Assembly (NCBI GenBank): GCA_024408655.1
Contig: JAKSUV010000001.1
Coordinates: 69,544-133,543, forward strand
DNA length: 64,000 nucleotides
Reading direction: 5' to 3'
Source: Bacilli bacterium
GTDB lineage: Bacteria; Bacillota_I; Bacilli_A; RFN20; CAG-826
In this document: in pieces, positions 26 through 8,163 of the stretch
Numbering within the stretch: the stretch's first letter is position 1
Layout of the letters: every line of letters starts with the position of its first letter
Program-made: the position numbers and the translations under genes
Notes under the pieces: model-generated
Told to the model about the DNA's origin: nothing
The model's database searches: none
What the model saw: the letters and a program-made list of their open reading frames with translations, nothing else

Positions 26-285
26 ATGAAGAAGCCGATTATTCCCATTACTATTCTAGCTTGCTTTTCGATTTCTTCACTTTTAGGGTGCAAAGCACCA
101 GCCAATGGTCCCGACCGTGATTATGATGGTATTATCAACGGACTAGATCCGGCACCAGATGACAATACATACTTCTTGTCATATTAGCTTATGGCTTTGA
201 TGCCGATGGTATTGTCGATGCTCATATCCAAGCTACTTCTTGCTTTATGGTTTATATGTATAATCAACAAAACAATCAGCGCTGA
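26..285 (+). pseudogene. Decayed Ca-binding lipoprotein fragment
   Basis: An ATG at 26 opens a 53-codon frame with a signal peptide and lipobox (LLGC), then a calcium-loop-like stretch (DYDGIINGLDPAPDDN) of the type seen in thrombospondin-3/EF-hand-like surface proteins. It stops at TAG 185-187. Reading continues in the -1 frame from 184 to TGA 283-285 with another acidic motif (FDADGIVDAH). This fits a frameshifted remnant of a longer surface lipoprotein, although a genuine 53-residue lipoprotein is possible. Nothing else is seen between 286 and the promoter at 365. Confidence 0.5.
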
Positions 286-364
286 TATTAATATAGCCAA
301 ATTAATTTATTAAATATCTTCTGTAGTTATACATAACTACATAGACAGTTTTATTAAAAAATGA

Positions 365-378
365 TATAGTCATTTCAT
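365..378 (+). promoter_or_regulatory. -10 box placed for a leaderless start
   Basis: TATAGT at 365-370 is followed by exactly 8 nt and then the ATG at 379. A transcript starting at the usual distance from the -10 would begin at the start codon. No Shine-Dalgarno sequence lies in these 8 nt. Confidence 0.5.
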
Positions 379-3300
379 ATGGCACAAAACAAAAAAACTA
401 AAAAAGTCAAAGTAGAAAAGACTAAAACAATTTCAAAGCCTAAAGTTAAACCGGAAGAAGCTCCAAAAATCGAGAAACCGGTGCAAAATGAATCACTAGC
501 GATAGGGAAAATTTTAAATCACTCGAAAAAAGCGGAAGCGACTGAAACGCCACAAGATAAACCTGAACCCAAGGAAGAAGCAGCGGCGAAAGATAGCGAT
601 AAAGCCTCGCGCCGTAAACTTATTAATCGGAAGCCTTTCTTTAATTCGGCTGCTCATCGTTTAGCGCGGCAAATTCTTTTGTGCTTTATTTTTATCTTTA
701 ATATTATTTTCTTATTTGTGCCGTTAAAGATGGCAGATTTTGGCGGTAACGGCATATTAGTCGCTTTATTCTTATATCAATTTAACTCTGCTTTATTTGC
801 TACCACCATTTTAATCGGTGGCACGATTGTAGCGTGTCTTTTGGCTTTGTACCAAACAATTAGGCAGCAAAGAACTAGATCCACCGCACCTTTTATTACA
901 CTAGTGGCTAATGCCTTAGTGTTCTGTTTTAACTCCACAAACGACGCCTTATCAACCGGCATGGTGGTTGTCAATGTATTATCTATGCTTTGTGCTTTAT
1001 CTTTGATTGCTTTAAACATGATTACTTATATTGGCAACCGGGTCGATAAACCAGAAAAGAAGCATACATATTATTTTATTATAAACTGTCTCTCCTTCTT
1101 CATTACCTTGTTATTAATGTTTATTCCGTTTAATTTAGCTAATTCGTCAGGTCTTTTTGTTCCTTCTAACTGGATGCTTGGTTCCTTAATTTACGCTGAC
1201 GGGACCTTTACCTTCTCCTTTGTTGGGGCCTTAGCCTTTACCTTTGCGTTAGTGATTAATCTCGTTTTTCTTGACGGCTGTTTCCGTTATTATTTAGAAA
1301 ATCGCAATGGGTTTGTCAGGCGTTCACAAAACATGATTTCCTATAACCTCTTCTTAACTTTAGGCTTCCTAGTCTTTGCGGTTTTAAAAGTGATTGTGGA
1401 AAACATGACTGGACAAAATCATGATCCGTTTGTGACTGTCTTCTTTCTTCCTTTCTTATTGAACTCGATTTTAATGGTGGTGCAGAATTTTATTATTGGG
1501 CGGAAAGAAAAACCAATTATCCCCTCCTCAGCACGGCCAATTGAAAAGGCGGTCATTAACGCCGAAATTGAACATAACCGAAAGATTAATAACTACCGGG
1601 CCACCTTCTTAGTGACCCAATTCCTCCTCCTTGGTGCGTTAGTGGCGTGCTTTTTTGTGAAGTTCTTAATTGTTTCAGGTAGTAGTGCAGTAGGCGAAAC
1701 TGCTTCTTATAGTTATACGGCTTATGAGTTAATGATGCAATTCGCTACGGGCGATGAAAGCTTCCGCATTGTGGGCTTTATTTTCCTTGTTGTGGCCATT
1801 ACTAATGTTGTGCTTTATATTTTATCGGTTTGCGCGATGCTATCAAACAGTCGCTCTGCTGATAGTTTATGTTATGCCTCTGTCATTGCGTTATGTGGAT
1901 CGGTTAGTTTAATTGGTATTTCCTCTTTATATTATTTAGCTTCTATCCGTTCTTCGCCCCAAATCATTGCCGCCTATTTCCCGCCAGAATTTGCGGAGAA
2001 AATTATTGAATGGCTCAAACAATTTACGGATGCAGTGAAGGTCAGTAACCAAACCCTTGGTCCATGTATAGCCGCAATTGTGGTTGCTTTACTTTTACTT
2101 ATCGCAAAACCACTAACCGCAATTCAAAAGGAAAATGCTCGTTTTGCTTTAGCCCGGAGTGCAACCGCTTTAAGTGCGGGAGCGAATGGCTCAGCCGCGC
2201 CGAGCCAAGATCAAAAAGATGAGGATGCTTCGGAAAAAGTTTCACTGGTGGAAGATAACGCGGTTACTTTCGATGCATGCCCTTCCTTTACGGAACTTGA
2301 TAACAAAAAAGCCGATTTTGATAAAGATGTCGCGTTACGTCGGCAAGGTCTATTCTTAAATCCATCTTTACAAAAACTTGTCACTTTCGTTGTGGATTAC
2401 GCGCGTAATTCTCGTCTCCATTTGTCTTACCAAAAAGAAGATATTGCGACCTTTGTGGCTGGTTTAGGCGCAACCAAATTATCAATCCTCCAAGGTATGT
2501 CTGGAACCGGGAAAACCTCTTTGCCAAAGATTTTCCTCGAAGCCATTTGGGGGAATTGCGAGATTATCGAAATTGAATCTTCTTGGCGGGATAAAAATGA
2601 ACTTTTAGGTTATTATAACGAGTTCTCGCATCTTTATTCGCCGAAGAAATTTACCCGGGCGTTATATAAATCCGCACTCAACCCTGACATTGTGACCTTC
2701 ATCGTTCTAGATGAAATGAACTTAAGCCGCATTGAATACTATTTCTCGGATTTCCTTTCTTTAATGGAAAACGAAGAAGATAAACGCGAGATTCGTTTAC
2801 TCAATAACCAAATCTTTAATACGTATGATAAGGCTTCCCATTCTTATCGCGCCTTAAAAGATAATCACACGATTGTGATTCCCCCGAACGTCTGGTTTGT
2901 GGGTACCGCTAACCGCGACGAATCAACATTTGAAATTTCGGATAAAGTGTATGACCGGGCTTATACGATGAACTTTGATCGTCGGGCACCCGCTATCACG
3001 AGTTATAAAGATCCAATGGATCGTCGTTTCTTAGACTACAAAACCTTTAGAAAACTTTTGTATCATGTTCCAGCGGTTAATTTCTCCATTGAAGAATCGC
3101 CGATTATTAAGGAAGTCGAAAAAGCGCTCGCGCCTTATAACATTTCCTTTGGTAACCGTATCTTACGGCAAATGGAAACCTTCATTAATATTTATTGCAA
3201 CTGCTTCCCTAATCCTAACAGCAAGATTGATGAGGCGTTAGAAACTATCCTCTTAAGCAAAGTAGTACATAAACTTGAATACAAGAACGTGCGGAATAAA

Positions 3301-3381
3301 GAAGAATTACTCCATCTCTTTAAGAAATTAAAACTCAATAAGTGCGTTGAATTTGTTGGTCGTTTAACTGAGGAATTCTAA
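379..3381 (+). CDS. Polytopic membrane protein fused to McrB-like AAA+ ATPase
   Basis: This 1000-residue protein has three parts. Residues 1-90 are a Lys/Glu-rich cytoplasmic tail. Residues about 95-580 hold roughly 11-12 hydrophobic segments. Residues about 660-1000 are an AAA+ module of the McrB/MoxR type, with Walker A GMSGTGKT at 706-713, Walker B LDEMN around 777-781, a sensor-1-like TANRDE around 843-848 and arginines (VYDRAY, FDRR) downstream that could serve as fingers. McrB relatives are normally soluble GTPases, so the large membrane domain is unusual. The stop overlaps the next start (TAATG at 3379-3383), so the two products are probably translated together. The ATPase assignment is firm. 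A role in defence or in membrane remodelling is inference. Confidence 0.85.
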   Translation: MAQNKKTKKVKVEKTKTISKPKVKPEEAPKIEKPVQNESLAIGKILNHSKKAEATETPQDKPEPKEEAAAKDSDKASRRKLINRKPFFNSAAHRLARQILLCFIFIFNIIFLFVPLKMADFGGNGILVALFLYQFNSALFATTILIGGTIVACLLALYQTIRQQRTRSTAPFITLVANALVFCFNSTNDALSTGMVVVNVLSMLCALSLIALNMITYIGNRVDKPEKKHTYYFIINCLSFFITLLLMFIPFNLANSSGLFVPSNWMLGSLIYADGTFTFSFVGALAFTFALVINLVFLDGCFRYYLENRNGFVRRSQNMISYNLFLTLGFLVFAVLKVIVENMTGQNHDPFVTVFFLPFLLNSILMVVQNFIIGRKEKPIIPSSARPIEKAVINAEIEHNRKINNYRATFLVTQFLLLGALVACFFVKFLIVSGSSAVGETASYSYTAYELMMQFATGDESFRIVGFIFLVVAITNVVLYILSVCAMLSNSRSADSLCYASVIALCGSVSLIGISSLYYLASIRSSPQIIAAYFPPEFAEKIIEWLKQFTDAVKVSNQTLGPCIAAIVVALLLLIAKPLTAIQKENARFALARSATALSAGANGSAAPSQDQKDEDASEKVSLVEDNAVTFDACPSFTELDNKKADFDKDVALRRQGLFLNPSLQKLVTFVVDYARNSRLHLSYQKEDIATFVAGLGATKLSILQGMSGTGKTSLPKIFLEAIWGNCEIIEIESSWRDKNELLGYYNEFSHLYSPKKFTRALYKSALNPDIVTFIVLDEMNLSRIEYYFSDFLSLMENEEDKREIRLLNNQIFNTYDKASHSYRALKDNHTIVIPPNVWFVGTANRDESTFEISDKVYDRAYTMNFDRRAPAITSYKDPMDRRFLDYKTFRKLLYHVPAVNFSIEESPIIKEVEKALAPYNISFGNRILRQMETFINIYCNCFPNPNSKIDEALETILLSKVVHKLEYKNVRNKEELLHLFKKLKLNKCVEFVGRLTEEF

Positions 3382-4904
3382 TGCTTGATTACGCGAGCCA
3401 AGAAGAACTCCAAGACATTATTTCTGACTACGATTCTGTGACCGAGTTTGTGAGTCACAACAAGAACATTGCCTTCTATAAGTTCGACCATTATATCGCT
3501 CATAAATTGTCACTTTTTTTGGTGCACGAAACCATCGATTTAAAAGCGATTAAGGCAACCGTTGATTATATTAATCACACTATGCCTTACCTGGTATCAA
3601 TTTTTACTAAGCCCATTATTCATTTAAAAGAAGTCGACGAAATTGTGCCAATTGAAATGGTCCACAAAATTGGTAATGACACGATGACCTACGCGGGGGT
3701 CCATACTGAACTCTGGGACAATTTTACGGCACTAGGTGTCCAACCACGCAAATTACTGACGCAACTCTGCGATAACAATTATCGGATTTACGAAAACCAA
3801 ATTTTTGCCCAAACAGTTGACGATGTCTTGCATTATCTTCGTTGCCGGTTACGCGAAATCCGTAACTTATTATTTGTGTCGGGTAATTTCAATATCAATA
3901 TTTTAGAGAAATTAGATCATCCCAATTATTACACGGCAGTAGGTAAACTCCATTCCGGTTATATCCGGAATTTTAATGATTTTTATACGGCTTTGCCGTT
4001 AAACATTGATATCGCACAAATTTTAGCGGAGATACAAGGCTATCTAAAATTTAATGTTTATAAATATAACGCCCGGCGGAAAAAGCGATTGCAGTTAAAA
4101 CTCACTAATATATTAAAGATGCAAAAGAACTATCACGCGATTTATTTATTAGCCAAAAAGCTTAATTTGATGCGACCGAAGAAGAAACAATTCGCCCCCC
4201 AAACTTTGCAAAAATTTGAACGGGCTTATTTTCATTATTGCATCATCCTCTTGTTATTTACTTTATCCCATTTCGACTTTAACACTACGGATGCGACGAA
4301 AGTTAATTTCCGGGGTGTCAACGCTGAATTTACCAACCAAGGTTGGCATGTTCAAGTCAAACAAGTGACTTCCAATCAACAAAGTGCGATTTTATTAAGT
4401 GTCAAAAAAGATCGGCAATATAAGATATTATTAGTGCCGCAAAATATTACTAGCGACACATCCTTTGTTTATGACAAACGGTTACGGTGTCAAGAGATTG
4501 TTTATTTATCCCCGTTTTCCTCTAACAAAACTAGTTTATATGTTTCCATTACCGACTTTGATTCATTCTTGCGACTTCAACAATTGATTTTTAAGGCCAT
4601 GGTCTATGCCGACAGTAAACATAAGAAATGTCCTTTCTGTGGTCGTGAATTAGTGGCCGATAAAACTACTAAAAACGTTTGGACGTGTCCAGTTTGCCGC
4701 ACCCGAATTCAAAAATGTAAATGTCCCGAGACAAACAAATACTATTACACCACCGCGATTGATGGACTTCATCTTGAACCCTCCCTCCGTAGTGAATATC
4801 TTGATCGTTACGGGCGTTCGAAGAACATGCATTATCGTAACATTACTGATATCACCGCCTATGGCGAAGCTATTTGTCCAGCGTGCGATAAAATCCATGG
4901 ATGA
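3381..4904 (+). CDS. DUF2357-like partner of the AAA+ protein, zinc-ribbon tail
   Basis: This 507-residue soluble protein starts inside the stop codon of the AAA+ gene. Residues about 110-165 (WDNF...GVQPRKLLTQL, then YENQIFAQ...LRCRLREI) resemble the P-R-(x)-L / YEN-(R) helical signature of DUF2357 proteins, which often partner McrB-type ATPases. The C-terminus has four cysteine pairs (CPFC, CPVC, CKC, CPAC), suggesting one or two zinc ribbons that could bind nucleic acid or protein. I see no convincing PD-(D/E)xK nuclease motif, although DUF2357/McrC partners often carry one. The family assignment is by eye. The tight coupling to the ATPase is seen directly. Confidence 0.7.
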   Translation: MLDYASQEELQDIISDYDSVTEFVSHNKNIAFYKFDHYIAHKLSLFLVHETIDLKAIKATVDYINHTMPYLVSIFTKPIIHLKEVDEIVPIEMVHKIGNDTMTYAGVHTELWDNFTALGVQPRKLLTQLCDNNYRIYENQIFAQTVDDVLHYLRCRLREIRNLLFVSGNFNINILEKLDHPNYYTAVGKLHSGYIRNFNDFYTALPLNIDIAQILAEIQGYLKFNVYKYNARRKKRLQLKLTNILKMQKNYHAIYLLAKKLNLMRPKKKQFAPQTLQKFERAYFHYCIILLLFTLSHFDFNTTDATKVNFRGVNAEFTNQGWHVQVKQVTSNQQSAILLSVKKDRQYKILLVPQNITSDTSFVYDKRLRCQEIVYLSPFSSNKTSLYVSITDFDSFLRLQQLIFKAMVYADSKHKKCPFCGRELVADKTTKNVWTCPVCRTRIQKCKCPETNKYYYTTAIDGLHLEPSLRSEYLDRYGRSKNMHYRNITDITAYGEAICPACDKIHG

Positions 4905-4949
4905 TAGTCAAGAGTTTAATTAGTGTATAATTAAATTACGAAAATACCT

Positions 4950-6686
4950 ATGAAAAAGCTAACGTATCTTCTCTTACCCCTCATGACTGCATCATTTTTA
5001 ATTGGCTGTGATGGTAGTAGAAGTGATCCACCGCAATTTGATACTTATCCAGTGATGTTTAACGGCAATGGTGGTACTTTAGTTACGGGTGAAGAGTTCC
5101 AATTAGTTCATAATCCGGAAGAAATTGTTCCACCCACTTATACAAACGAACCTTATCATTTTATGGGTTGGGATGTTGATCCTATGTATGCGATTACCAT
5201 TATGATGATTACGGCCCAATGGAATACGGGCGAAGAATATATTGTGTATTTTAACGGCAATGGCGGGACTTTAGTTGAAGGCGAAGAAAAACAAACAGTG
5301 ACTAAACCTGAGGACTTAAAACCACCGAAATACGAAAAACCCGGCTATGTATTTATCGGATGGGACCGCGATCTTACGAATATTTATAGTCCGACCACCA
5401 TTAAGGCTTTATGGGTCGAAGATAACAAGTATATTGTGTATTTTGATTGCAATGCACCCGATGCTAAATTAGAAGGTGAAGCGCTCCAAATCGTTGATGA
5501 TCTTAGCGAAATAGAATATCCAGAAAGCGTAGTAAGAGAAGGGTACAAATTTGCTGGTTGGAAGGAAGAAGTCATTACCGAACGGCAAATAATTTATAGA
5601 GCACAATGGGTTAAAGACGACACCGAATATAATATTACGTGGAAATGGGAAACCGCTGATGGTCCGCAAGAGGAAATCATTGGTGTAAAATACGGCGATA
5701 CTCCTACGCCTCCTGAAGGTTCAGAAGCTAGTTTTGATATTCCTCCAACTCGCTATACTTTCGCGGGCTGGGATAGCGAAATAGTGGAGGTTACAGGTGA
5801 AAAAACTTATACGGCTAAATATAATGAATCAACCATTAAATATAAGATTAAGTGGAACTGGGAAAACGATAAAGGTCCTCAAACACAAGAAAGCGAAGTG
5901 ATTCATGGTAATATGCCAGAACCACCAGCTGAGTCAACAAAGGATCTTGTCAAACTACAAAATACATATAAATTTATTGGTTGGGATAGTGAGATAGTCG
6001 AAGCTACTGGCGATAAAACATATACGGCTGAGTATGATAGGAACAACCCGACTAAAACTACTTATACTGTATCTTGGTATAACGATGACAAGAAACTTTT
6101 AGATACTAATACAGCCGCTTATGGTGAGACGCCTATTTACACCGGGACAACTACTCCGACAAAAGCGCAAGACGAAACCCACACATATGTATTTAATGGT
6201 CAATGGCATGATGACAAAAAGCAACCACTTGGGCCAATTGAGCCCACATCCATCAATCAAACATATGCTTACTATCCAGAGTTTGAAGAATACGATATCT
6301 CGCATTGTACATTTGAATTAAACCAAGCGCAAAGTGGTTATGTTCTTACGAGTTTTAACGGGGATGAAACCACCTTTAAAATTTCACCTATTTATAACAA
6401 TATGCCCGTCGTTGAAATTGGCACAGCCGCTTTTGCATTGGCACCTAATCTAGAAGCCGTAATTATACCTAGTAGCGTTACCACTATTAATAATTACGCT
6501 TTTATTGGGCAGACCGCTTTATCTTCGATTACAGTATTAGCCAATAATCCTCCTATACTAAAGACGCGTGTTTTCCTTGATTGTGAGAATCTTTCTAGCA
6601 TTTATGTTCCTAGTGAAGCTGTGGAAGTTTATCAAGAAGCAGATGGTTGGAAAGAACACGCCGATATAATCAAAAGTATAATATAG
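4950..6686 (+). CDS. Surface lipoprotein with InlB-type repeats and BspA-type LRR
   Basis: The 578-residue protein begins with a lipoprotein signal (lipobox LIGC, Cys 20). About six tandem modules follow, each about 50-70 residues, with a GNGG or WKWE-type opening, a conserved F.GWD core and a closing aromatic/tyrosine strand (TAQW, KALW, RAQW, TAKY, TAEY). This is the Listeria-Bacteroides / InlB B-repeat fold. The last 130 residues are a BspA-type leucine-rich repeat region (IGTAAFALAPNLEAVIIPSS). Such proteins are lipid-anchored on the outer face and usually take part in adhesion; the ligand is unknown. A TATAAT at 4926-4931 lies 18 nt before the ATG and there is no clear ribosome-binding site. 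Confidence 0.85.
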   Translation: MKKLTYLLLPLMTASFLIGCDGSRSDPPQFDTYPVMFNGNGGTLVTGEEFQLVHNPEEIVPPTYTNEPYHFMGWDVDPMYAITIMMITAQWNTGEEYIVYFNGNGGTLVEGEEKQTVTKPEDLKPPKYEKPGYVFIGWDRDLTNIYSPTTIKALWVEDNKYIVYFDCNAPDAKLEGEALQIVDDLSEIEYPESVVREGYKFAGWKEEVITERQIIYRAQWVKDDTEYNITWKWETADGPQEEIIGVKYGDTPTPPEGSEASFDIPPTRYTFAGWDSEIVEVTGEKTYTAKYNESTIKYKIKWNWENDKGPQTQESEVIHGNMPEPPAESTKDLVKLQNTYKFIGWDSEIVEATGDKTYTAEYDRNNPTKTTYTVSWYNDDKKLLDTNTAAYGETPIYTGTTTPTKAQDETHTYVFNGQWHDDKKQPLGPIEPTSINQTYAYYPEFEEYDISHCTFELNQAQSGYVLTSFNGDETTFKISPIYNNMPVVEIGTAAFALAPNLEAVIIPSSVTTINNYAFIGQTALSSITVLANNPPILKTRVFLDCENLSSIYVPSEAVEVYQEADGWKEHADIIKSII

Positions 6687-6705
6687 TTTGTGATTTTAAG
6701 ATTAA

Positions 6706-6732
6706 ATATCACTCCGTAAGGGGTGTTGTTTT
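6706..6732 (+). repeat. Left copy of 27-bp hairpin repeat
   Basis: This matches 24 of 27 positions of 8264-8290, in the same orientation. It encodes a small hairpin: CACTCC and GGGGTG arms closed by a GTAA (GNRA) tetraloop, followed by a T-rich tail (TTGTTTTG). It could terminate the upstream lipoprotein gene. One of the three differences from the other copy lies in the loop (GTAA versus GCAA) and keeps the GNRA form. Weaker resemblance continues for about 35 bp. Confidence 0.7.
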
Positions 6733-6819
6733 GTATACCTCCCCCAAATTTGAGTTCACGAATTGTAAACATTAATTATATTATTTTCAGGGAATGCTTA
6801 ACTAAGATTTTGAATTATA

Positions 6820-6869
6820 TGCCACAATTCTTGATTTTTTTTAAATTTGTGGCACTATATTGGTATAGA
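6820..6869 (+). promoter_or_regulatory. Inverted repeat and promoter region of the DUF4143 ATPase gene
   Basis: Perfect 8-bp arms TGCCACAA (6820-6827) and TTGTGGCA (6847-6854) flank a T-rich centre. They lie directly upstream of two possible -10 boxes, TATATT (6856-6861) and TATAGA (6864-6869). The position suits a repressor operator or a leader hairpin; the binding protein is unknown. Confidence 0.4.
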
Positions 6870-6880
6870 TGAATTAGATT

Positions 6881-8107
6881 ATGTATATAAAAAGAGAAAA
6901 ATATTTGAGCAAAATTAGGCCATTCTACAACGTTGATCTAATAAAGGTTCTAACAGGTGTTAGGAGGTCTGGAAAATCTATTCTTTTAGAGCAAATAAAA
7001 GATGAATTTATCCGTAACGGATTTGATAGCAAACATATTATATTTATCAACTTTGAAGATTTAAAATTTGAAAAAATTAGAACAATTAATAAATTAAATG
7101 ATTATGTAATGTCGCTAATAAAGGACAAGAACAAATACGTAATTTTTTTAGATGAAATACAGCACGTTCGTAATTTTGAAAAAGCATTAGCATCATTTCG
7201 TGTTGCGATTAACTGTTCTATTTTTGTAACTGGTAGTAATTCAAAGCTTTTATCTGGTAAACTAGCTACTTTACTTGTCGGGAGATGCATTGAATTTAAA
7301 ATAATGCCTTTTTCGTTCTTAGAAAGTTATCAATTTCAACGAGTTCTTGGCAATAATGTTAATCCTGATGAATTTATGAATGATTACTTGAAATGGGGTG
7401 GTTTTCCATTGCGTTTCTCTTTTTCTAAGGAAAGCGAAATCAAGCGTTATCTTAAACAAACATATAATGGGATACTAGATAAAGACATCATAACTTCTAA
7501 TTCCAAAATCAATCGTCAAAATTTTGAAGTTGTTGCATCTTACATAATGGCTAATTCTGGTAATGAATTTTCAAGTACCAATATTGAAAATTATTTTAAA
7601 AGTAAAAATAAAATTGCTTTAGATAGGAAGACTGTTTATCGATACCTAGATAAAATGGAAAAAGCTTGTTTAATTAATAGAGTTAAACGCTTTAACATAG
7701 TTGGTAAACAAGCAATGTCATATATTGAAAAACAATATGCAGTTGATATAGGCTTCAGAATGATAAATACCAACTTGATTAATTATAGTGATTCGTTCTT
7801 CTTGGAAAACATTATTTATAATGAATTAATACAAAGAGATTACGAAGTGTTTGTCGGTAAAACATATAAAGGCGAGATTGATTTTGTTGTCATAAAAGAA
7901 AATAAAAAGTGTTTTATTCAAGTTGCGTATTATCTTTCAAATGACGATACAATTGACAGAGAATTTGATGCCTTTAAACCAATAAAAGATGCTTCGCCGA
8001 AATATGTTATGTCACTAGATCGCCCAGCGAGGTATTCAAAAGACGGAATAACTCATATTAATATCGTTGATTTTCTATTGAATAAAGTAGATATTAATTT
8101 ATCATAG
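6881..8107 (+). CDS. AAA_14/DUF4143-type ATPase
   Basis: This 408-residue protein belongs to the archaeal-type AAA_14 + DUF4143 group. Walker A GVRRSGKS is at residues 26-33, Walker B FLDEIQ ends at D91-E92, and a sensor-like TGSNSKLLS follows. The C-terminus has the family's nuclease-like core (ENIIYNELIQRDYEV, then GEIDFVV). These proteins occur as strain-specific single genes whose cellular role is poorly known. The gene is more A/T-rich than its neighbours by eye, using AAT, ATA and AGA codons freely. It sits alone between two direct repeats, 6706-6732 and 8264-8290, which suggests recent arrival. Family confidence is high; function is unknown. Confidence 0.88.
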   Translation: MYIKREKYLSKIRPFYNVDLIKVLTGVRRSGKSILLEQIKDEFIRNGFDSKHIIFINFEDLKFEKIRTINKLNDYVMSLIKDKNKYVIFLDEIQHVRNFEKALASFRVAINCSIFVTGSNSKLLSGKLATLLVGRCIEFKIMPFSFLESYQFQRVLGNNVNPDEFMNDYLKWGGFPLRFSFSKESEIKRYLKQTYNGILDKDIITSNSKINRQNFEVVASYIMANSGNEFSSTNIENYFKSKNKIALDRKTVYRYLDKMEKACLINRVKRFNIVGKQAMSYIEKQYAVDIGFRMINTNLINYSDSFFLENIIYNELIQRDYEVFVGKTYKGEIDFVVIKENKKCFIQVAYYLSNDDTIDREFDAFKPIKDASPKYVMSLDRPARYSKDGITHINIVDFLLNKVDINLS

Positions 8108-8163
8108 TCTAAGCGATTCGTAATATTTGACTTTTATTGTCGATTTGTTAAATTATAAATATA

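Follow-up and report, generated by a model that had tools for sequence, protein, structure and literature searches.

A predicted polytopic McrB-like ATPase and its McrC-like partner from a Bacilli bacterium as a candidate two-gene accessory module

Overview of the gene pair

A stretch of 64,000 nucleotides from the Bacilli bacterium assembly GCA_024408655.1 (contig JAKSUV010000001.1, positions 69,544 to 133,543, hereafter the window) contains two adjacent genes, ORF1 and ORF2, whose products resemble the McrB ATPase and its McrC partner. When we compared both proteins with their relatives, ORF1 appeared to carry its ATPase on a large membrane domain and ORF2 to have lost its nuclease. Based on these observations, we suggest that the pair is a nuclease-free derivative of McrBC from the CoCoNuT lineage, consisting of two genes, located in the cytoplasmic membrane and most likely serving as an accessory anti-phage (conflict) module, a reading which we favour at slightly less than an even chance. 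The oligomeric state, the ligand, the membrane output and the role in defence are all inferred. McrBC-type systems are known for cutting nucleic acids, and a widespread nuclease-less relative with a large, rapidly evolving membrane domain would, if the reading is true, mean that the AAA+/McrC engine can also drive a membrane effector. The minimum of two genes makes this idea easy to test. No description of a polytopic McrB was found among the open-licence PMC full texts.

ORF1 belongs to the NxD branch of McrB-type ATPases

The assignment of ORF1 to the McrB-type AAA+ proteins of the NxD branch, with predicted NTPase activity judged from its motifs, is well supported. In the structure alignment, the AAA+ module matched the McrB chain 6ut6_D with a Z score of 15.2 and a root-mean-square deviation (rmsd) of 3.3 over 183 residues, and the McrB chain 6hz4_D with a Z score of 14.5 and 18% identity, and these matches were tied with other AAA+ chains of the MoxR/dynein type such as RavA and dynein. 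When we aligned the profile of the ORF1 family (A1) with E. coli McrB using hhalign, the E-value was 3.6e-8. The initial annotation of the window had proposed an AAA+ fold of the McrB clade, and the structure match and the profile match both agree with it. The residues of Walker A, Walker B and the NxD motif are invariant across 20 aligned rows of the family. Walker A lies where it had first been placed, and Walker B is present as FIVLDE at residues 774-779, the span of 777-781 originally given to it being its LDEMN end. The motif N[R/K]DE was found in 23 of 23 multi-helix rows, and the same motif reads NTAD in E. coli McrB. According to Bell et al. (PMC11090510), the branch that bears the CoCoNuT and CoCoPALM systems is marked by a shortening of the motif to NxD, with E or D as the usual next residue. 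Pfam gave only AAA_5 for ORF1, below threshold, and no family in Pfam, NCBIfam or PHROGs spanned the full length of the multi-helix protein. The Pfam matches to MFS_1 and Sld5 were also under the cut-off and we do not believe them. A sequence search of solved structures with P0001, A1 and the profile of the partner family (A2) recovered no McrB or McrC. Finally, no modified-base reader domain was found in the Pfam or NCBIfam scans of ORF1, the N-terminal part being membrane.

The membrane part is joined to the AAA+ module by a short linker. Hydropathy gave 11 membrane segments and the AlphaFold2 model (mean predicted local distance difference test score, pLDDT, 76) gave 12, just as the 11-12 helices first proposed. 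Four longer outside loops of 23-34 residues contain only 0-3 Lys/Arg each, and the remaining Lys/Arg of the membrane loops lie mostly in short inside loops, a pattern that fits a topology with both termini inside. The long N-terminal tail of ORF1 was seen in only 2 of 20 aligned rows, both from the genus of the window, and membrane unit 1 is missing from family members with 7-8 predicted helices. When we compared units 2 and 3 of the family with hhalign, the score was 51.5 (E-value 8.8e-8), and the controls scored 24.2 (E-value 0.0037) when reversed, at most 28.4 for local shuffles and 33.7 to 48.5 when rotated, the last being high because local alignment still recovers the common part. Since units 2 and 3 are related, a four-helix unit appears to have undergone an internal duplication. 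A three-fold repeat was rejected since unit 1 was not clearly above the controls. The profile comparison showed no relation between these units and the membrane part of the four-helix class of McrB described below. We also looked for a stand-alone form of the membrane domain in 149 genomes, and it was rejected since nine of the ten matching genomes showed long ATPase frames and the tenth match was weak. The structure aligner barely probed the membrane part of ORF1, and its list need not cover every related fold. Mean pairwise identity across the family is 79% in the AAA core and 16-23% in the membrane units, and the multi-helix family thus keeps its motor constant while its membrane part changes quickly.

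ORF2 is an McrC-type protein with a decayed nuclease region

The assignment of ORF2 as an McrC-type DUF2357 protein with a putatively decayed nuclease region and two conserved, predicted zinc sites is also well supported. Pfam DUF2357 matched 10 of the 19 aligned partners (E-value of 0.1 or less, best 7e-7), the copy in the window not being among them, and the A2 profile matched three McrC homologues from CoCoNuT-III-like plasmid loci with an E-value of 4.3e-28 over 275 columns. Two of these three homologues are annotated as DUF2357 in their own records. The DUF2357-like nature first ascribed to ORF2 therefore holds at the level of the family. The AlphaFold2 model of ORF2 has a pLDDT of 81 and its top Foldseek match was E. 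coli McrC; in the structure aligner, run over 999 chains, the five McrC entries listed occupied ranks 2 to 6 with Z scores of 8.1 to 5.8.

No (D/E)xK is aligned over residues 266-410 of the partner family, no column showing the motif in more than 4 of 19 rows, which is in line with the initial annotation, where no nuclease motif was seen. The four Cys pairs noted there are right for this copy, and the family pattern of cysteines and histidines is that of two predicted zinc sites. Site 1 is kept in all 19 partners, and in site 2 the three cysteines C448/C499/C502 are kept in 18 of 19 and H506 in 17 of 19. In the partner from one locus (L085) all four ligands of site 2 are gone together, as expected if all of them bind one metal.

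The pair is a stand-alone unit probably related to CoCoNuT operons

The two reading frames overlap as first annotated, sharing one base in the TAATG of TTCTAATGC, and ORF2 is probably translationally coupled to ORF1 through this overlap. The guanine-cytosine content of the pair, 0.391, is similar to the 0.384 in the rest of the window. A scan of the genome collection gave 20 loci encoding the multi-helix ATPase, from metagenome-assembled genomes labelled as Bacilli, Erysipelotrichaceae, Anaeroplasmataceae, Mollicutes, Clostridia, Oscillospiraceae, Christensenella and others, and further loci came from whole-genome searches. We treated L118/L076 and L073/L054, which agree in contig and gene lengths, as duplicates and counted each once, excluded L089 from A1 and L088 and L091 from A2, and identified the partner in L088 by reading the frame. 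Both genes are adjacent in 33 of 33 distinct loci including the window, their spacing ranging from -35 to +5 bases, and such constant pairing rules out chance. At three of these loci one gene is split in two frames (L089:333-2653, L091:5533-7097 and L116:11223-13885), by decay or assembly error.

No third gene recurs beside the pair in the 33 loci, the neighbours changing from locus to locus, and same-strand neighbours within 60 bases were found upstream at 4 of 31 and downstream at 7 of 31 loci. When we scanned 127 neighbour proteins with Pfam, taken from 23 loci with up to three on each side, no family occurred in more than 3 of the 127, among the 25 of 145 families listed. Likewise, no nuclease, HEPN protein or signal peptidase recurs beside the pair in the 33 loci, although a nuclease at a single locus is possible given that 25 of 145 families were listed. 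The promoter scan was at chance level (19 found, 22.5 expected). The multi-helix form was not seen on phages or plasmids, the relatives there sharing the AAA domain only.

To place the pair we built trees of both proteins. In the ATPase tree without E. coli McrB, the 23 multi-helix rows formed one clade (100/100), whose sister was the coiled-coil McrB of MT835511 (99/97), an unverified faecal contig labelled as phage. In an earlier ATPase tree without MT835511, the multi-helix rows lay near CoCoNuT-III-like McrBs on long branches. When the MT835511 McrB was searched back, its eight best places in 149 class genomes were all multi-helix proteins. The partner profile aligns with the MT835511 McrC over two separate segments, 10-318 and 373-512, which take in the zinc part, and in the DUF2357 tree the multi-helix partners group together (94/99). 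The multi-helix clade may sit among the unnamed NxD groups of Bell et al.

The locus in MT835511 (L137, MT835511.1 33935-45916, in a record labelled bacteriophage) is a CoCoNuT-type operon. It encodes a UPF1-like helicase (AAA_11/AAA_12), a 544-residue protein without Pfam match, a coiled-coil-like McrB and a DUF2357 McrC, an arrangement given by Bell et al. for type II and III CoCoNuTs (PMC11090510). The coiled coil was read off the sequence without a predictor, and our guess from an RxxxxH near its end is that the 544-residue protein might be a HEPN effector. A LexA-like gene follows the McrC gene.

Distribution of the pair

When we searched overlapping samples of genomes, the partner was found in 4 of 57 family genomes (E-value of 1e-80 or less), 13 of 247 class genomes (1e-140 or less) and 11 of 295 phylum genomes (1e-50 or less). 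Presence also differs between genomes of the same genus. G000 and G039 carry the partner and G008 has no match; G170, G182 and G195 carry it and G208 has a distant relative only; G403 carries it and G026, G227 and G049 lack it. Because the G008 genome is 90% complete, no single absence can be taken as proof. The pair is accessory and patchy and varies within genera; it is not a set of core genes in all relatives, the outcome that the initial annotation had considered contrary to its proposal.

Comparison with known systems

The nearest known system on the ATPase tree is the CoCoNuT (PMC11090510), represented by the type-II-like MT835511 operon. The likeness consists of an NxD McrB gene followed by a DUF2357 McrC gene, and in both cases McrC has a zinc ribbon and an inactive nuclease region. 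However, the pair has 7-12 membrane helices in place of the McrB coiled coil, and it consists of two genes only, without a CnuH helicase or CnuE gene. The partner is also shorter, its profile meeting the MT835511 McrC from residue 83 and skipping about 150 residues in the middle. No CoCoNuT coiled coil, either fused to McrB or as CnuA, was seen: the N-terminal part consists of membrane helices in the multi-helix rows examined, as judged without a dedicated coiled-coil predictor, and there is no constant third gene.

Bell et al. (PMC11090510) give the name CoCoPALM, without a detailed account, to signal-peptidase-linked systems, which share with the pair an NxD McrB with an N-terminal membrane segment and an McrC homologue. 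Their own features are signal peptidases and a single FtsB-like helix together with a coiled coil. The pair differs from CoCoPALM, taken here by description, in its 7-12 helices, its separate ATPase clade and the lack of a recurrent signal peptidase. Canonical McrBC (type IV restriction) shares the AAA+ fold, the McrC-type DUF2357 partner and the operon order of B then C, whereas in the pair no modified-base reader and no PD-(D/E)xK residues were found, NxD replaces NxxD and a membrane domain is added. The division protein PcdA (PMC10602043) is likewise of the McrB family, from Bacillota and associated with the membrane in its function.

Proposed function and alternative explanations

Based on these comparisons, we propose the following mechanism. 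ORF1 would form an AAA+ ring on the cytoplasmic face of the membrane, each subunit being held in the membrane by 8-12 helices whose outside loops are long. ORF2 would dock through its DUF2357 domain and trigger NTP hydrolysis, as McrC does for McrB, and its zinc ribbons might sense an infection signal, either nucleic acid or a phage product. The motion of the ring would then be passed to the membrane domain, which would open or distort the membrane, and this output would stand in for the nuclease or HEPN effectors of CoCoNuTs. According to Bell et al. (PMC11090510), a CoCoNuT that lacks an active nuclease in McrC is always accompanied by a different nuclease in the same neighbourhood. Since the pair has kept no nuclease and none recurs in its vicinity, the membrane domain is a natural candidate for the output, and we infer that the output is probably at the membrane. 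A bolder version, which we put forward with less confidence than the overall reading, is that the polytopic domain, partly built by duplication of a four-helix unit, is an effector gated by the AAA+ ring and the zinc-ribbon McrC sensor, and that the pair is a minimal abortive-infection system of two genes spreading between Bacilli and Clostridia.

The features that point to defence are the patchy variation within genera, the two-gene unit in changing places, the kinship with CoCoNuTs on the ATPase tree and the conserved motor combined with a fast-changing membrane part. Several results weigh against this reading or against the assignments on which it is built. First, the fold match of ORF2 to McrC was weak: the Foldseek E-value was 0.038, four of the five McrC entries aligned over 206-244 residues at an rmsd of about 17 and the fifth over 137 residues at 7.0, and an unrelated kinetochore chain headed the list of the structure aligner with a Z score of 8.9. 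The fold match is therefore suggestive, and more weight falls on the sequence profile. Second, A2 gave no match when compared with E. coli McrC alone, and in the DUF2357 tree MT835511 is not resolved as the sister. Third, the IMG/VR scans gave no relatives beyond one distant match per scan. Fourth, no defence island was found, the 127 neighbour proteins from 23 loci giving 23 PADLOC families with no recurring system and another 48 proteins from the window giving 10. The sole strong PADLOC match was PDC-M26A on ORF1, with its best stretch in the AAA core (residues 660-809 against 295-442 of 724), and ORF2 had none. We rejected a defence call from PDC-M26A as non-specific because five of five tested McrB-type ATPases from different clades match it over the AAA core, and CoCoNuT-III-like, Lactococcus, one-helix and four-helix McrBs are among those that do. 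The defence system at the membrane that was first suggested is thus not established by the neighbourhood survey or by PADLOC.

The main reason why we hold the defence reading below one half is the existence of other membrane-bound McrBs in the same bacterial family. We found one-helix and four-helix classes at L063, L057, L058, L060, L064-L068, L072 and L069-L071. The neighbours of the one-helix McrBs are a SipW-like signal peptidase, EAL proteins, a phosphorylase and several secreted proteins, and those of the four-helix McrBs are a SipW-like peptidase, an ABC transporter-like gene, so labelled from its translation rather than from a family search, and secreted proteins. The SipW-like peptidases were sub-threshold NCBIfam matches in the two loci scanned (L063 and L069). 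In L063 the two EAL proteins and the phosphorylase were identified by Pfam, and clustered homologues are present in other loci of the one-helix class. From the description by Bell et al. (PMC11090510), the one-helix class would correspond to CoCoPALM. Since these pairs lie in envelope-type operons, attachment to the membrane does not by itself make an McrBC a defence system, and such proteins can have a role in the envelope. The initial idea of a membrane McrB stands as far as carriage on the membrane is concerned, but it did not set these relatives apart. The membrane-bound McrBCs of these Bacilli thus comprise at least two groups, the stand-alone multi-helix pair and the one- and four-helix forms of envelope operons.

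Accordingly, the pair could also be an envelope or secretion machine, in which the AAA+ ring and the membrane domain remodel, insert or export membrane or surface proteins in a MoxR-like way and ORF2 is an adaptor. We regard this as unlikely, and it is the best placed of the alternatives. Same-family NxD McrB/McrC pairs with one or four helices lie in SipW/secreted-protein operons, with EAL proteins in one class, Bell et al. describe CoCoPALM as linked to signal peptidases, and the copy in the window stands within a variable lipoprotein array. However, on the ATPase tree the multi-helix clade lies outside the group (100/96) that unites the one- and four-helix McrBs and the tandem class, no neighbour of any kind recurs in the 33 loci, and genes carried by 13 of 247 class genomes are hard to reconcile with a core role in the envelope.

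It is more doubtful that the pair is a membrane-tethered surveillance device for nucleic acids that recruits a nuclease encoded elsewhere, its membrane domain only positioning the ring at the entry point of foreign DNA or RNA. The conservation of the zinc sites and the low identity of the membrane sequence, as for a passive anchor, would agree with this, and a nuclease in trans is thinkable because nuclease-less CoCoNuTs, according to Bell et al., always have one nearby. On the contrary, no nuclease or other gene recurs beside the pair, and a passive anchor needs no 8-12 helices with an internal duplication when one helix suffices in the other class. Finally, a co-opted McrB serving cell division or other housekeeping is very improbable: PcdA of Staphylococcus shows that McrB-family NTPases can become membrane division proteins (PMC10602043), but PcdA is fused to EVE domains, has degraded Walker motifs and lacks McrC, whereas here the Walker and NxD motifs are invariant and the partner is always present, and the presence and absence within genera speak against a housekeeping role.

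Features of the locus

The positions of the genes, domains and motifs are collected in Table 1.

Table 1. Genes, predicted domains and motifs of the pair in window coordinates
Feature	Residues	Position	Strand
ORF1, 1000 residues; polytopic membrane domain fused to NxD-branch McrB-like AAA+ NTPase (predicted)		379..3381	+
Lys/Glu/Pro-rich tail of ORF1, predicted disordered (pLDDT < 50 for 1-85)	1-89	379..645	+
Membrane unit 1 of ORF1, about 4 helices	90-222	646..1044	+
Membrane unit 2 of ORF1, 4 helices; long outside loop after helix 1	223-380	1045..1518	+
Membrane unit 3 of ORF1, 4 helices; kin to unit 2	385-602	1531..2184	+
McrB-like AAA+ core of ORF1	630-870	2266..2988	+
Walker A of ORF1, GMSGTGKT	706-713	2494-2517	+
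Walker B of ORF1, FIVLDE	774-779	2698-2715	+
NxDE motif of ORF1, NRDE		2911-2922	+
Invariant Arg of ORF1	860	2956-2958	+
AAA+ C-terminal helical lid of ORF1	871-1000	2989..3378	+
ORF2, 507 residues; McrC/CnuC-like partner (predicted)		3381..4904	+
DUF2357 (McrC N-terminal) region of ORF2	51-265	3531..4175	+
IYEN motif of the DUF2357 region of ORF2		3786-3797	+
Putative decayed nuclease-like alpha/beta region of ORF2; no aligned (D/E)xK	266-410	4176..4610	+
C-terminal double zinc site of ORF2 (predicted)	411-507	4611..4901	+
Zinc site 1 of ORF2 (predicted)	C417/C420/C436/C439	4629-4697	+
Zinc site 2 of ORF2 (predicted)	C448/C499/C502/H506	4722-4898	+

The pair lies in a variable slot after lysS (window about 260-8143; L113, L114), where three genomes of the genus hold three gene sets. 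The DNA of G008 is about 94-96% identical to the window over lysS and its upstream region, and beside lysS both G008 and G039 hold other genes, mainly lipoproteins, in place of the pair. The replaced stretch runs from about 260 (or 23) to 6710 (or 8144) of the window, and the pair that G039 does carry is on a different contig from its lysS locus. Most genes of the slot encode lipoproteins, and Listeria-Bacteroides or leucine-rich repeats are present in some of these. Just before the pair, window 27-290 is a remnant of a lipoprotein gene with its start and end kept and its middle missing, the full counterpart being open over 511 residues in G008 (L113). Two genes downstream of the pair, window 6881-8107 (+) is an AAA_14/DUF4143 ATPase gene, and G039 has a different ATPase of similar look at this position.

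We also observed tandem McrB-McrC-McrB loci in the bacterial family (L059:5440-9902, L061:8379-12744 and L062:8786-13518). By reading, the two McrBs of L059 have an apparently identical AAA part and different N-termini, and its McrC has a long helical, coiled-coil-like tail.

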